Positions 15,349 through 58,043 of a stretch of DNA of 64,000 nt are shown piece after piece. The notes under the pieces are model-generated. The model saw nothing but the letters and a program-made list of their open reading frames with translations, was not told the DNA's origin and did no database searches. Every line of letters starts with the position of its first letter. Within the stretch, counting starts at the first letter, position 1. This DNA is from a virus. Where the stretch lies: IMG/VR virus record IMGVR_UViG_3300008107_000029, positions 1 to 64,000 of that record; one strand, given 5' to 3'. Made by a program: the position numbers and the translations under genes.

Positions 15349-15531
15349 AAGGTCAGAAGTCCTGACTAGCCACCGATTTTTTATAGAAAAAATACTATCT
15401 TTTATTAATATAAGTATTTTCTATTATATATTTTTTTACCTATATTTATTTTACTTATAGGTATTTTCTTCTTATATTTAGATTATACACAAAACTTTAT
15501 TATCAAGAGTAAAATGTCCTATTTTGTACCT

Positions 15532-21593: not shown

Positions 21594-21613
21594 CTATCCA
21601 CAGGTTATCCACA
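21594..21613 (+). other. Two DnaA-box-like sites
   Basis: CTATCCACA (21594-21602) and consensus TTATCCACA (21605-21613), 11 bp apart, opposite in direction to the array at 27269. They lie directly upstream of the CRP-like operator of the next promoter, so host DnaA may influence it. Confidence 0.5.
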
Positions 21614-21625
21614 GGTTTACGAGGA

Positions 21626-21700
21626 TGTGATTTTTCTCACAGGAATAAATCGGACATTTCAAGGATTGGATTTGATAATGTCAGCCCGTTCTGTTATACT
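21626..21700 (+). promoter_or_regulatory. Early promoter with perfect CRP-like operator
   Basis: Operator TGTGA-TTTTTC-TCACA (21626-21641), centre 38.5 nt before TTGATA (21672-21677). 17 nt beginning ATGTCAGCCCG, TATACT (21695-21700). Drives the DUF932 gene. Confidence 0.8.
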
Positions 21701-21732
21701 TGGGGTAACAACAACAGAAAGGCAATAAATAT

Positions 21733-22734
21733 ATGGCTCATTTACTAGAAGAAGGTTCAAACGGCGAAGTTGCATTTGCATCATTGCGTGAACCTGCTTG
21801 GCACAATCTTGGAACAGTGTTTCAAGATGAGGTTACAACATCAGAAATGTTAGACCTTGCACATTTGTCAAATTGGAATGTGCGTCTTGAAGATGTAATT
21901 CTACCAGACACTTACACATCTGTCAAAAACAATTTTATGGTTGTTCGCAACAATCCATTTGAAGATAACCAAAATGATGTTTTGGGAATTGTTGGAGATA
22001 GATACAATGTAGTTCAGAATGAAGATTTATTTTCATTCGGTGATTCAATTCTTGATGGTGGAGGCGTGTGGGAAACTGCTGGCTCAATCAAAAAGGGAAC
22101 AGTTGTATTTGGTGCTCTTGCATTGGATAAGACAATCACTCTTGATGCACAAGGGGCAAACGACCAGACAAAAACTTATTTGCTATTGCACACATCACAC
22201 GATGGTTCTGTGTCAATTCAAGCAAGCATCACACCTGTTCGTGTTGTCTGCCAAAATACACTAAACCTTGCATTGCGTAGTGTAAAGCAATCATTCAAAA
22301 TTCGTCATACACAATCTGCTGACGGAAAAGTTGCTGCTGCTCGTGAGGCTCTTGGAATGTCATTTGCCTATATGGACACATTTGAAAAGGAAGCACAGGC
22401 ATTGTATCAAAAGTCAATGACCGAAGCAGAATTTATCAAAATCGTAAACACCATTTACCCTAAGCCTGAAAAAGATGCAAAAGGCTCTTTCAAGAAATGG
22501 GAAAACAAAATGGTTTCATTGCAAGAAATTCTTGCATCACCTACTAATGCAAACATTCAAGGCACAGCGTGGGCAGGACTCAATGCACTCACTGAGCGTT
22601 TAGATTGGTATCGCACATCTCGTGGTGGCAACAGCGAAAACACATTTGCATCTGCATCTGGTTTTGACCCTGTTATCAACGCAGAGAAAAATAAAATTTA
22701 CCAAACTGTAAAAGCATTTGCAGCGAGTAAATAA
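21733..22734 (+). CDS. DUF932 (phage/plasmid-like) protein
   Basis: 333 aa, the typical length of the DUF932/TIGR03299 family carried by phages and plasmids. Landmarks are EPAWHNLGTVF near the start, then YNVVQNEDLF, LLLHTSHDGS, TPVRVVCQNTLNLAL and a KIRHTQS segment. The biochemical role is not established; association with DNA replication or repair on mobile elements is often inferred. It is by far the largest gene of the early region and has its own promoter and a following terminator-like hairpin, suggesting importance early in infection. Confidence 0.85.
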   Translation: MAHLLEEGSNGEVAFASLREPAWHNLGTVFQDEVTTSEMLDLAHLSNWNVRLEDVILPDTYTSVKNNFMVVRNNPFEDNQNDVLGIVGDRYNVVQNEDLFSFGDSILDGGGVWETAGSIKKGTVVFGALALDKTITLDAQGANDQTKTYLLLHTSHDGSVSIQASITPVRVVCQNTLNLALRSVKQSFKIRHTQSADGKVAAAREALGMSFAYMDTFEKEAQALYQKSMTEAEFIKIVNTIYPKPEKDAKGSFKKWENKMVSLQEILASPTNANIQGTAWAGLNALTERLDWYRTSRGGNSENTFASASGFDPVINAEKNKIYQTVKAFAASK

Positions 22735-26681: not shown

Positions 26682-26777
26682 GAGGGGGCGGTCAGAGAAG
26701 TTATTTAATAACTCATTACGATCATATGAAAAATATCACTGGAATTTTGGAGGCTTCTCATTAATACTCCTATACTC

Positions 26778-26840: not shown

Positions 26841-27008
26841 ATGAAGAGAGTTAAGAAATCTTTATCTCAGGGTAAACAGCCATATAGTATAGATGCCTTT
26901 AATCATAGACATCCTGGACGTAATCCTAATAACAAAGTATCCTTTAGTAATACTCTATATAGTAATAGAGGATCATATTCAGTTAGCCGCCCTCAGAATG
27001 ACAAATAA
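26841..27008 (+). CDS. Small basic protein, possibly with a membrane anchor
   Basis: 55 aa from ATG 26841 (aaggaag directly before it). A longer form from TTG 26778 would add a convincing transmembrane helix (IVYVILGFLLYWSY), but that TTG is the -35 of the promoter here. If another upstream promoter reads through, both forms may exist. Confidence 0.5.
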   Translation: MKRVKKSLSQGKQPYSIDAFNHRHPGRNPNNKVSFSNTLYSNRGSYSVSRPQNDK

Positions 27009-27174
27009 GATAGATTACGATCTGCCGAAAAATATCACTGGAATTTGTCCGTGGTGCTACGAGCAGGCGGCGGTGGTAGAAGATTACCTTGATCCTCAAT
27101 ATAAGATATATACATGTAATACACACCCAAGAGTATTCTATGATACTCTCTCTGGATATCTAAGATATTTATAA
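26998..27174 (+). CDS. Small zinc-finger protein next to the origin
   Basis: 58 aa, overlapping the previous stop by 11 nt. Has ICPWC and a later C-x-THP, a possible Cys/His zinc site. Last plus-strand gene before the origin gap. A near copy of its first segment (YD-x2-KNITGI) occurs upstream at 26717-26748. Confidence 0.6.
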   Translation: MTNKIDYDLPKNITGICPWCYEQAAVVEDYLDPQYKIYTCNTHPRVFYDTLSGYLRYL

Positions 27175-27268
27175 TATAACATTACGATAATATACACATA
27201 ATCACTGAAATGTCAAGTGTTTATGTGTATTTTTTTATATATTTTTATATAGAAATATAGGGATAATA
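27175..27268. other. AT-rich unwinding region beside the DnaA array
   Basis: Almost pure A/T with long T runs (27230-27250), directly left of the DnaA boxes. No gene. It fits a DNA unwinding element. The wider gap 27175-27505 contains this, the array, and an AT-rich spacer with nothing else I can name. Confidence 0.6.
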
Positions 27269-27404
27269 TGTGGATAACTTGCATATATATGTGGATAACT
27301 TATAATAATATGTGGATAAATAGGTATAAAATGTGGATAAATAGGATATAAGTGTGGATAAGTATAGGGGGAACTGTGGAAAAGTATTACGATTATGTGG
27401 ATAA
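27269..27404 (+). other. Putative replication origin: seven phased DnaA boxes
   Basis: TGTGGATAA, the complement of the DnaA box TTATCCACA, begins at 27269, 27290, 27311, 27332, 27353 and 27396, with a one-mismatch copy TGTGGAAAA at 27375. All point the same way and the steps are 21, 21, 21, 21, 22 and 21 bp, two helical turns each. Plus-strand genes end just before it and minus-strand genes end just after it. This is the structure of an iteron-type origin that uses host DnaA. Confidence 0.8.
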
Positions 27405-27505
27405 CTCTCATTAATACCCATATATAGTATTAGACTTCCATACTAGTACTACATATAGACATAACAATAAGTATTTATTTACTTAAATATCCACTATACT
27501 CCACT

Positions 27506-27619
27506 TTACTCCACATCATCAGCAACCGTGGGCAGACATACTTCCTTTTCCCATATCTTCTTTCCATCTTTCCATATAGGCCAATACCCCAGTGCTCTCC
27601 AGTCCATATCATATATCAT
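27506..27619 (-). CDS. Hypothetical short peptide
   Basis: 37 aa (MIYDMDWRALGYW start), Trp/Lys-rich, coupled to the upstream gene by ATGA. Last gene of the minus operon that runs up to the origin. Confidence 0.5.
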   Translation of the reverse strand: MIYDMDWRALGYWPIWKDGKKIWEKEVCLPTVADDVE

Positions 27620-27810
27620 TCTCTTGCCCATTGATCTTCCCATAAGCCCATAATGGATTCATTCCCTATATCGTCAAAGTAGTATCTCTTCTTATCAGGG
27701 TTATAAGTCCATCCTCTCCATAAGCCGTCGTCATCTAGCCAAGTTAGGTTAGTAGGTCCTTCTTCTTTATATGCTGCTATCCTACGTAGTAATTCCTTGT
27801 CAGTTATCAT
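27616..27810 (-). CDS. Hypothetical small protein
   Basis: 64 aa, Trp- and Asp-rich (LTWLDDDGLWRGWTYNPDKKRYYF), a WW-like beta sheet by appearance. ATGA overlaps with both neighbours. Confidence 0.6.
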   Translation of the reverse strand: MITDKELLRRIAAYKEEGPTNLTWLDDDGLWRGWTYNPDKKRYYFDDIGNESIMGLWEDQWARE

Positions 27811-30129: not shown

Positions 30130-31252
30130 CTTTGTTCTCCTTCTTCTTAAAAACAGGGTTTACTATTGGCAGGTGCTTTGCCTTCTTTGTCTTTCTTTGT
30201 TCAAGATCTATGCCTGCATACTTTAAATATCCTTTAAATGTTCTTGGAAGGTATCCAAATTCGTCATTACTTGCAGTAATCAATGAGTTTATTCTTTCTG
30301 ACTCCATTGCTAATCTTTCTTTATATGAGTACCAACGCTTATAAGGGTATTTTTTGGTCTCTGTAAAGTAATCTCTACCACCAGCATCATTGATAATAGA
30401 AGGATCTTCAGTCCTAAAAGACAAGTCTCCTAAGTCTTTTTCTTCTACAAACGTAACAGTTCCAGCGTATCTATGATATACATATGGGGTTGAACTATGA
30501 CAAAACTCATACCCCCTCATATACGCAAGGGCTGATTGATATAGTTCTTCTCCCCAAAATATTAAGTCTTCATTTAAGCATGTACGATAACTGTTTACCC
30601 AGATAGGCCCATCAGTAAACATATTGTGTGCACAAATTTTAATTGCTGGAAGCCACCTGTTTTCTATCCAGCCATGAGAATGGTGTCTTTGTTCACCTGG
30701 ATATATTGTATGATCCCATCCTACTGGAAAGTGTGGGCTTCTTCTATCGTCATAAAGCCAAAAAGCATATTTGTTTTCATTCCTTGTAGTAAAGACTTCA
30801 TCGCCATCTTCTCCTGTTTCAACATCAAATCCAGGAGCATAGTTTCCTAGCAAGACACGCTCTCCAAAATATGTCTTACAGTCTTCAAACTCATTGATTA
30901 TATCTACATCCCAATCTTTTCTAAATCTCATGTGGGAATCAATTTGAAAGAAGTAATCCTCGTTGTTGTAATATTGTAATGCGTTTAGCCTACCTCTTCC
31001 TACACCAAAGAAGTCTGCGTGTTTAAAAAATCCTGATTTGTAATTTCCCTCTGGTGGATCAAAATCTAAAACCCAAAACTTTTTATATTCTGGGTCTGTT
31101 AACTGATCTAAGTCAGAAAGATATATAGGGCTACCAACGTAAACCCTTTCTGGATACTTTGCATTTTTAAATAAATGTTTTATTGTTGCAGCATAATCGT
31201 AGTCTTCCATTGTAGGAACCGAAACAAAGATAGTTTTTAAATTACGATCCAT
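30113..31252 (-). CDS. GT60-like (GlcNAc transferase family) glycosyltransferase
   Basis: 379 aa from ATG 31252 (TAATG overlap with the upstream stop); 31276 is an earlier option. It begins with KTIFVSVPTMEDYDYAATIKHLF, then GRGRLNALQYY and the hallmark QIDSHMRFRKDWD, the metal-binding motif of the GT-A family that includes Skp1 hydroxyproline GlcNAc-transferase. A later NYAPGFD and HSHGW fit the sugar pocket. It likely attaches a sugar from a nucleotide donor to a protein side chain. A second member is at 35869-37140, and each is adjacent to a DUF6065-like gene. Confidence 0.75.
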   Translation of the reverse strand: MDRNLKTIFVSVPTMEDYDYAATIKHLFKNAKYPERVYVGSPIYLSDLDQLTDPEYKKFWVLDFDPPEGNYKSGFFKHADFFGVGRGRLNALQYYNNEDYFFQIDSHMRFRKDWDVDIINEFEDCKTYFGERVLLGNYAPGFDVETGEDGDEVFTTRNENKYAFWLYDDRRSPHFPVGWDHTIYPGEQRHHSHGWIENRWLPAIKICAHNMFTDGPIWVNSYRTCLNEDLIFWGEELYQSALAYMRGYEFCHSSTPYVYHRYAGTVTFVEEKDLGDLSFRTEDPSIINDAGGRDYFTETKKYPYKRWYSYKERLAMESERINSLITASNDEFGYLPRTFKGYLKYAGIDLEQRKTKKAKHLPIVNPVFKKKENKDEAKN

Positions 31253-31989
31253 TACATGTATTCTTTTTTCTGCCACATTTCTTTTTTATAGCCACTGGAA
31301 AGATGTCTTCTTACCTTCATGTTTAGTAGTTCGTATTCATCTTTTCCCATAGCCCTTGGCTCTGTAGCCATCCAAGATTCACGCTTAAAAGGAATGATTT
31401 GCATCATTGGTGTTCCCATTGGAATAACCCCCTCAAATCCCTTTTTAATAAAAAATGGGTGGTTCCCTGTCGCATACCAGTGATCAGTATCCATCACGCC
31501 AGAAACTGTATGAATTGGAAGGTCATCTCTGTTTAGTGGGTGTGTGTACAAAGTACTGTAGCCAGGTGGAGTCTTTGCTTCCCAGTGTGTAAGCCAAGTA
31601 AACTCACAGTCATAGTACTCATCTGGAATAGGCATAGATGTTTTATTTGATGGACCTCTAGTATTAACTATGTTAAAAGATGGGTGTGAACTAATCTTTA
31701 CACTTGCTCCATTAAAAGAACTCTCTACATAAATATCACAAGGGGTTGTCATAATATATCCCATAGTAAACGCATCAAAGAACGGCATACACTGTTTTAG
31801 TGTTGAGTTAGCACTGCCAAATCTATCATCCCACTCTGCTGTTTTTGAGTGATGAGAAGGTATATTTTTATACCAATCTGGAATTAAAGTTCTTGCTGGC
31901 TTAGGGGCCTCACAAGATTGTAAGATTATCTCATCCCTAGCAACAAAAGTAATGTCCTGATAGGGCCTAAACTTTTTCTTCTTAAACAT
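31252..31989 (-). CDS. DUF6065-like protein (paralogue 1)
   Basis: 245 aa. Family signature: DWYKNIP near the start, CMPFFDAFTMGYIM, TPPGYSTLYTHP, GVMDTDHW and MGTPMMQIIPFKRESW. Two relatives lie at 35178-35879 and 57288-58043. The GY-x-L, D-T-D and G-x-P-x-x-x-x-P pattern recalls DUF6065, possibly a double-stranded beta helix. The start follows FmdB-like gene 32002. Catalytic role unknown; its pairing with GT60-like genes suggests work on the same substrate. Confidence 0.6.
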   Translation of the reverse strand: MFKKKKFRPYQDITFVARDEIILQSCEAPKPARTLIPDWYKNIPSHHSKTAEWDDRFGSANSTLKQCMPFFDAFTMGYIMTTPCDIYVESSFNGASVKISSHPSFNIVNTRGPSNKTSMPIPDEYYDCEFTWLTHWEAKTPPGYSTLYTHPLNRDDLPIHTVSGVMDTDHWYATGNHPFFIKKGFEGVIPMGTPMMQIIPFKRESWMATEPRAMGKDEYELLNMKVRRHLSSGYKKEMWQKKEYM

Positions 31990-35177: not shown

Positions 35178-35879
35178 CTATCTATATTCTTTTCTATTCC
35201 ACCATAGATTTTTATATCTATTGACGAAAGATGTGTTGTGCTTATTAAGCATTGTTTGTTGATAACCTCTGCTTTCATCTACTGAGTACTCAGCAGTAAA
35301 CGAATCTCTTTTAAATGGCACAACGTGACATATTGGAGTTCCGTAAGGGATTACACCAGCGAAATCTTTTCTGATGTGAAAAGGAAAGTTAATGACTAAA
35401 GGAAATCTGTCAGTGTCTACAAACCCTGGAATGATCTTAAATGGAAGATCTTCACGATGTGGTGGTTGAAAAAACATTGTACTGTAACCATCTGGGGTAG
35501 TAATTCTCCAAGGATTAATAAACTTTAAAACAGTATCTTCATAACCATACGGCACTGGATATCCAATTACCTGATCGTCTGTATGTCCCTCTACTGCTTT
35601 AGTGTCGTAATCCATAGACCAGGAAACATCTACGTTACCATGCCCATCTCTTTTAACCAAGATGTCCGTCCATGTTTTTATTACATAGCCAGTAGACAAT
35701 GAATCCAAAATAGGAACACATTTTTTCATAGTAGCGTTCATTCCATCAAACTTACCACCGATGTAAGTATCCATAGACTTATACCAATCTGGAAGGTTCT
35801 TATTGGCAGGCTCTGGTTTTGGTGCAGCCTCAGACAACAGTGGATCAATTAAAGAAAATTGTATTTTTTTACTTGACAT
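35178..35879 (-). CDS. DUF6065-like protein (paralogue 2)
   Basis: 233 aa, same framework as 31252-31989: LPDWYKSM, KCVPILDSLSTGYVI, TPDGYSTMFFQPP, GFVDTDRF, YGTPICHVVPFKRDSF. Start overlaps the end of the GT60-like gene by 11 nt. Probably acts with that enzyme, since the other GT60-like gene also has such a neighbour. Confidence 0.6.
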   Translation of the reverse strand: MSSKKIQFSLIDPLLSEAAPKPEPANKNLPDWYKSMDTYIGGKFDGMNATMKKCVPILDSLSTGYVIKTWTDILVKRDGHGNVDVSWSMDYDTKAVEGHTDDQVIGYPVPYGYEDTVLKFINPWRITTPDGYSTMFFQPPHREDLPFKIIPGFVDTDRFPLVINFPFHIRKDFAGVIPYGTPICHVVPFKRDSFTAEYSVDESRGYQQTMLNKHNTSFVNRYKNLWWNRKEYR

Positions 35880-57287: not shown

Positions 57288-58043
57288 TCACTTATAGGAT
57301 TTTGGAACACGGTAGTGTCTACCGTAAGAACTTACAATCTTTCTAAGCAATCTTTCTAGCCTTATTTGTTGTTCTACTTCAGGGATGTGAGTGATTTCCA
57401 TTTCCCACTCATCCCTTTTAAATGGTATTACTTGAACTATTGGAGTCCCTGCCTCAATAATTCCTTCAAAATCTTTTTGAATAATGAATGGTGGATTCAC
57501 ATCTGTTTCTAACTTATCAGTGTCAACAACACCTGCAATTGTTTTAAAAGGTAGGGAGTTGTAGCCAACTGGATGGATAAACAAAGTTGAGTATCCTGGT
57601 GGCGTCTTTATAATCCAATGCCCACTCCATTTGTATACTTGATCTGAATATCCTTCGGGAATGTCATACCCCTTAAATTGATCAGTGCTCCATCTGGTTA
57701 CTGGGTTGATTGAAGAGGCAAAGAATGCTTCTTGAGTAGTATTGTTTCTATTGGCACCATCTCTATATGCAAATTCTATATCGCAATGAGACTTAATAAT
57801 ATATCCAGCAGTTAATCCATCTAAGATTGGTAAGCATCTTTTTAATCCAACATTTGGAACTCCATTGCCAGAAGACTCACCATTCTTACCATCTCTTCTG
57901 TAAGCCTGCATGCTAAATTTATCTTCACCCCATAAATAATGTGGAAGATCTTTCCACCATTGTGGGATCATTTTAGAAGCAGGTTCTGGCTGTGGAAAAG
58001 CCTGAGTTACTGGAGTTCTAGATTCAAATATAATTTTTGGCAC
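57288..58043 (-). CDS. DUF6065-like protein (paralogue 3)
   Basis: 251 aa from GTG. Signature retained: IPQWWKDLP, RCLPILDGLTAGYII, TPPGYSTLFIHP, GVVDTDKL, AGTPIVQVIPFKRDEW. Farther from the GT60-like genes than its two paralogues. Extended -10 TGT-TATAAT and gaaagg precede it. Function unknown. Confidence 0.6.
   Translation of the reverse strand: MPKIIFESRTPVTQAFPQPEPASKMIPQWWKDLPHYLWGEDKFSMQAYRRDGKNGESSGNGVPNVGLKRCLPILDGLTAGYIIKSHCDIEFAYRDGANRNNTTQEAFFASSINPVTRWSTDQFKGYDIPEGYSDQVYKWSGHWIIKTPPGYSTLFIHPVGYNSLPFKTIAGVVDTDKLETDVNPPFIIQKDFEGIIEAGTPIVQVIPFKRDEWEMEITHIPEVEQQIRLERLLRKIVSSYGRHYRVPKSYK

Follow-up and report, generated by a model that had tools for sequence, protein, structure and literature searches.

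Phased DnaA boxes beside a predicted MraZ operator in a freshwater tailed phage and its relatives, a possible host-DnaA-dependent start site for replication

A freshwater tailed phage carries seven DnaA boxes on one strand and in helical phase next to a predicted MraZ operator, and over 100 related viral sequences keep DnaA boxes and MraZ operator together. Host DnaA very probably binds the array, and we consider it evenly balanced whether the locus serves as a host-DnaA-dependent start site for phage replication with input from MraZ. The virus record has 96,832 bases and the stretch analysed here, called the window, comprises its bases 1-64000 (Table 1).

Table 1. Features of the locus and of the phage (positions in the window, or in the record where stated).
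Feature	Position	Strand	Remarks
DnaA-box pair (TGTGGATAA, TGTGGATAG, 11 bp apart)	21594..21613	-	upstream of DUF932 promoter; recurs in relatives
DUF932 gene (phrog_1221), syntenic marker	21733..22734	+	array 4.5 kb downstream
Last small ORF of rightward (DUF932) operon before junction	26893..27174	+	ORF only, no family match
Terminator-like hairpin with T7 tract	27192..27237	+	-21 kcal/mol, z -3.15
AT-rich low-stability stretch, candidate unwinding element	27219..27268	.	5' side of box 1
Array of seven DnaA boxes	27269..27404	+	box search, simulations
TGTGGATAA boxes	27269, 27290, 27311, 27332, 27353, 27396	+	exact match
TGTGGAAAA box	27375	+	reads TTTTCCACA on other strand
AT-rich spacer, array to MraZ operator	27405..27489	.
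MraZ operator (predicted)	27490..27514	-	GTGGA-N5-GTGGA-N5-GTGGA; TCCAC at 27490, 27500, 27510
Last small ORF of leftward operon, heading to junction	27616..27810	-	ORF only
RecA/UvsX-like protein	record 68639-69646
Pol III alpha (DnaE-type polymerase)	record 70126-73380
SSB	record 73384-74037
DnaG-type primase	record 74045-75001
DnaB-like helicase	record 75268-76494

The boxes of the array follow each other in steps of 21/21/21/21/22/21 bp, each of about two helical turns with a single 22-bp step, and a recount bore out all coordinates, the + strand and the steps that a first-pass annotation had given for seven boxes in phase and in a single orientation. The one-mismatch box that it had placed at 27375 is also present and corresponds on the other strand to the mioC-type DnaA box, in which C occupies the fifth position and which is a good binder (The DnaA Tale, PMC5835720). 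In 100 Markov simulations of the window, exact boxes occurred at a mean of 0.94 per simulated window and two same-strand exact boxes within 136 bp were never obtained (0/100); the array is not a product of chance, and with it the locus has the DnaA-box cluster expected of an oriC-type region. Elsewhere in the record only two exact boxes were found, at 21605 (-) and 45451 (+). Searches of the array region against INPHARED with megablast and blastn gave no match, and a search of the region against Rfam returned nothing but a sub-threshold chance match to mir-965. Virus contigs in general commonly contain phased DnaA-box arrays, with at least 120 three-box stretches versus 12 for the reversed word, and their steps peak at 11-12, 21-22, and 33 bp, although some of these arrays may be host oriC fragments.

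In E. coli oriC, the unwinding element DUE is followed by box R1, and the AT-rich stretch at 27219-27268 lies on the same side of the boxes. Among all 50-bp stretches of the record it ranks third in instability, and the least stable 30 bp begin at 27229. The low stability of the AT-rich block that had been described beside the array was thus confirmed, but the block overlaps the T-tract of a terminator-like hairpin that closes the rightward operon and that had been missed. The low-stability stretch 5' of TGTGGATAA that is characteristic for oriC-type regions is present, in part as a terminator, and is the natural candidate for unwinding in this phage, though it is also a terminator tail. The locus had further been presented as the only large gap between convergent operons; the junction is indeed convergent, but a second convergent junction, without a gap, is located at 11.7 kb. 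Two other features of the window were observed. The least stable 50-100 bp of the record are found at 15403-15467, include a 15-bp tandem repeat (TATATTTATTTTACC), and form another possible unwinding site. The motif ATTACGA occurs at 26715, 27014, 27181, and 27386 with similar flanks and near the ends of small genes; these copies belong to a 40-nt direct repeat family (D3, ...ATTACGATnnn...ATCACTGGAAT), and the motif is also common immediately left of the MraZ operator in relatives.

The first-pass account of the surroundings of the array had left out a triple of TCCAC motifs at 27490-27514, which is present as a single copy in the record, was not obtained in any of 60 simulations, and displays the three direct GTGG-type repeats with a period of 10 bp that define an MraZ operator. 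In relatives, the motif reads GTGGAG-N4-GTGGAG-N4-GTGGAG on the other strand, which agrees with the MraZ sites of repeated GTG reported in PMC7761207, where MraZ is presented as transcription repressor of the dcw operon. When the motif of the relatives was scanned over bacterial and archaeal chromosomes, 52 matches were detected, 49 of which had an ORF with an MraZ signature within 450 bp downstream, and five of these ORFs were confirmed as PF02381; one of the three remaining matches comes from a phage contig that was binned with a MAG. Because 49 of the 52 chromosomal matches are located just upstream of mraZ, the triple beside the array is by its sequence an MraZ operator, and binding of MraZ to it is predicted. 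An MraZ-like ORF follows none of the 115 phage copies of the operator, and in 101 of these 115 copies the distance from the operator to the nearest DnaA box is 36-38 bp.

A search for the array in related phages had been suggested at first pass, and the loci of 80 relatives were collected by means of the DUF932 marker, of which the 55 with at least 6.7 kb of downstream sequence were counted. It is evident that position and strand of the boxes are kept in diverged relatives, since same-strand TGTGGATAA was found 3-6.7 kb downstream of DUF932 in 47 of the 55, with two or more boxes in 42, whereas 8 of the 55 had no box at this place. In total, 136 boxes were on the same strand versus 3 on the opposite strand (0 and 5 for the reversed-word control), and where boxes deviate it is mainly to the DnaA-type variant TGTGTATAA. 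The locus lies where a conserved rightward operon, made up of small genes, ends; past this point gene content and direction vary. The constant core in relatives consists of three TCCAC at a period of 10 bp, about 30 AT-rich bases with CAGTAA, and the first TGTGGATAA, and the spacing from operator to box is identical in 81 of 82 copies of this core. In the window phage the array is located on the opposite side of the operator from the boxes of the relatives, the right side having only a degenerate ATCAGCAACC, and therefore the window phage is a rearranged member of the group. Some relatives (L285, L286, L305, L327, L390, L234, L254, L267, and L275) retain operator and CAGTAA and have no DnaA boxes after them. 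The complete phage core with operator, CAGTAA, and DnaA boxes was also observed in a contig (L418) from a MAG labelled Chitinophagaceae, probably a misbinned phage. Neither array nor operator was found in the contigs, many of them fragmentary, of phages sharing the tail fibre, and a pile-up of contig ends close to the operator, which could have indicated a genome end, was not significant.

Among cultured phages, the closest relatives belong to the Stanwilliamsviridae, a family with Streptomyces phages (57% identity for the polymerase and 44% for the capsid protein). In 7 of 8 cultured members, a DnaA-box cluster is present in a large, mostly unannotated gap: Jay2Jay, NootNoot, Lululemon, BillNye, Wakanda, TunaTartare, and Comrade contain clusters of TTATCCACA/TGTGGATAA in a gap of 0.8-1.5 kb with few or no annotated genes, and only Coruscant does not show this. 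Like the window, NootNoot and Lululemon have this gap at a junction convergent with the DUF932 operon. The MraZ operator is absent from all eight. In Jay2Jay, NootNoot, and Lululemon (L400, L461, L462), the cluster starts 93-94 bp outside a terminal repeat of 10.5-11.4 kb; closeness of boxes to the terminal repeat was rejected as a general rule, as the repeat of BillNye begins 5 kb away.

The phage possesses head, tail, terminase, and WhiB genes; WhiB is the usual marker of actinobacterial hosts for phages (PMC6802176), and the host is probably an actinobacterium. It encodes a replication module (Table 1), and neither a DnaA domain IV nor an mraZ gene was detected in it; none of its ORFs of at least 80 aa matched a plasmid Rep or DnaA family, and no DnaA was found among 12 relatives. 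Three paralogues of phrog_7084, whose function is unknown, are encoded at 31252-31989, 35178-35879, and 57288-58043 of the window. The recruitment of host DnaA proposed at first pass is well supported, as the boxes match the consensus exactly or are DnaA-type variants (TGTGTATAA, TGTGGAAAA), as their position and strand are conserved across many phages, as no DnaA-like gene was detected in the phage, and as TTATCCACA clusters adjoin dnaA in a freshwater actinobacterial genome, an Aquiluna MAG; the binding itself is inferred.

The locus is most economically explained as a DnaA start site that would feed the phage helicase and polymerase. Host DnaA would load cooperatively on the seven same-face consensus boxes and the DnaA filament would open the AT-rich stretch 5' of box 1, where the DnaB-type helicase, primase, SSB, and DnaE-type polymerase of the phage could be loaded, while host MraZ on the adjacent operator would probably modulate firing or local transcription according to the state of growth or division. 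A phage origin at the array, as had been proposed, is plausible but unproven. Cumulative GC skew, which had been named as a check, does not decide the matter because the raw skew tracks the gene strand; skew at fourfold sites gave a weak sign in 19 of 28 relatives and nothing in the window phage. DnaA-trios were counted within 16 bp of a box, on the side and strand that follow the order of R1 and DUE familiar from E. coli. In the window, runs of 3 at box 1 (p 0.4) and of 5 at box 7 (p 0.08) were obtained, and in relatives the mean longest run was 5.7 versus 2.1 on the other strand, a signal that fades under stricter thinning of similar sequences. As the signal is weaker after such thinning and not significant in the window, the trios are suggestive only. 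Counting against an origin are the relatives without boxes, several of which keep the MraZ operator, the box pairs at early promoters, and the unusual side of the operator on which the array is found in the window phage. A convergent junction is also awkward as an origin because bidirectional forks leaving it would be expected to meet transcription head-on on both sides.

Boxes and operator may instead form a transcription-control site without a replication start, where bound DnaA and MraZ would act on RNA polymerase, repressing, activating, or blocking it where the early operon ends or at adjacent promoters. We judge this to be rather unlikely, and it is the strongest rival, since pairs of boxes, accompanied by a CRP-like palindrome, are repeatedly found upstream of early promoters and since DnaA boxes precede a dnaB-like gene, identified by eye, in the Aquiluna MAG. 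Furthermore, a third box can be located between the -35 and -10 of the next promoter (relatives L241 and L262), MraZ is known as a repressor of the dcw operon (PMC7761207), and a terminator and convergent promoters flank the array. However, the array has no obvious promoter to serve in the window, and seven same-face boxes by an unstable stretch exceed the needs of a simple operator. The early promoter of the window itself, at 21594-21733, is modular, with the DnaA-box pair, a CRP/FNR-like palindrome (TGTGATTTTTCTCACA), and an extended -10 promoter, and early genes of relatives show these elements in the same order, together with a GGCGTGTCG motif and a hairpin upstream.

Less probable still is that the replicating phage uses the locus as a sponge that titrates DnaA (and MraZ), halting host initiation and disturbing the control of division genes. 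In E. coli, box clusters and datA are known to titrate DnaA (PMC5835720), and the nine or ten high-affinity boxes of each phage genome would increase in number as phage copies accumulate, but a sponge needs no single strand, no fixed phase, no fixed operator distance of 36-38 bp, and no conserved map position. The first-pass annotation had called the array iteron-like, and a phage-encoded initiator or repressor binding TGTGGATAA as iterons would agree with direct repeats of 21-22 bp, the usual iteron spacing, and with the many phage genes of unassigned function. We consider such a protein very improbable: whereas iteron units of 17-22 bp are conserved over their length, only the box of 9-10 bp is common to all units here, the repeat is an exact DnaA box and varies in DnaA-like ways, and no cognate Rep or DnaA-like protein was found among the ORFs of at least 80 aa. 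Finally, a coding repeat, in which the 21-bp unit would specify the heptapeptide YLSTxxx within a minus-strand ORF of 58 aa at 27245-27421, is hardly credible and was rejected, as the frame is open but the 22-bp step throws boxes 6 and 7 out of frame, the five in-frame copies share the identical codons TTA TCC ACA, and boxes in relatives have other spacings.

For large tailed phages that encode a replisome, the usual assumption is that they supply an initiator of their own or prime on transcripts. If a host-DnaA-dependent start is correct, phages that conserve a DnaA module and have no recognisable initiator would depend on the master initiator of the host. The pairing with MraZ, a nearly universal division regulator, suggests that two host growth regulators start or time phage replication or gene expression. 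More tentatively, and with doubt prevailing, MraZ operator and oriC-like DnaA module at fixed spacing might constitute a widespread actinophage cis-element that makes replication, or the late-gene switch, follow the cell cycle of the host. With this operator, a phage would be seen to use MraZ for the first time in the open-access literature searched, relative to which the coupling of the operator to DnaA boxes also appears new. The cultured Streptomyces relatives Jay2Jay, NootNoot, Lululemon, BillNye, and Wakanda make the DnaA part testable.

The iteron origins of P1 oriR, pSC101, and RK2 combine iterons with DnaA boxes and resemble the phage locus in their direct repeats about two helical turns apart and in a likely participation of host DnaA, whereas in the phage the DnaA box itself forms the repeat and the search for a Rep gene found none. 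The MraZ operator at the mraZ/dcw promoter has, like the phage site, three GTGGAG-type repeats with a 10-bp period; unlike it, the phage site does not precede mraZ and is coupled to DnaA boxes. For the Pseudomonas phage vB_PseuGesM_254, an AT-rich region with DnaA boxes has likewise been proposed as origin, and in the available portion of that article this is one Ori-Finder prediction, with neither comparative support nor an MraZ operator (PMC11512268). The basal unwinding system (BUS) of bacteria consists of DnaA boxes plus DnaA-trios and an unwinding element (PMC8287927). Unlike a bacterial oriC, the phage locus lies where two operons converge, a long way from any dnaA, trios are not evident in the window, and initiation is hypothetical; as in a bacterial oriC with BUS, same-strand boxes are preceded by an AT-rich stretch 5' of TGTGGATAA, and most relatives come closer to the BUS with tandem boxes 2-3 bp apart and, on their 5' side, a stretch with A at every third base.
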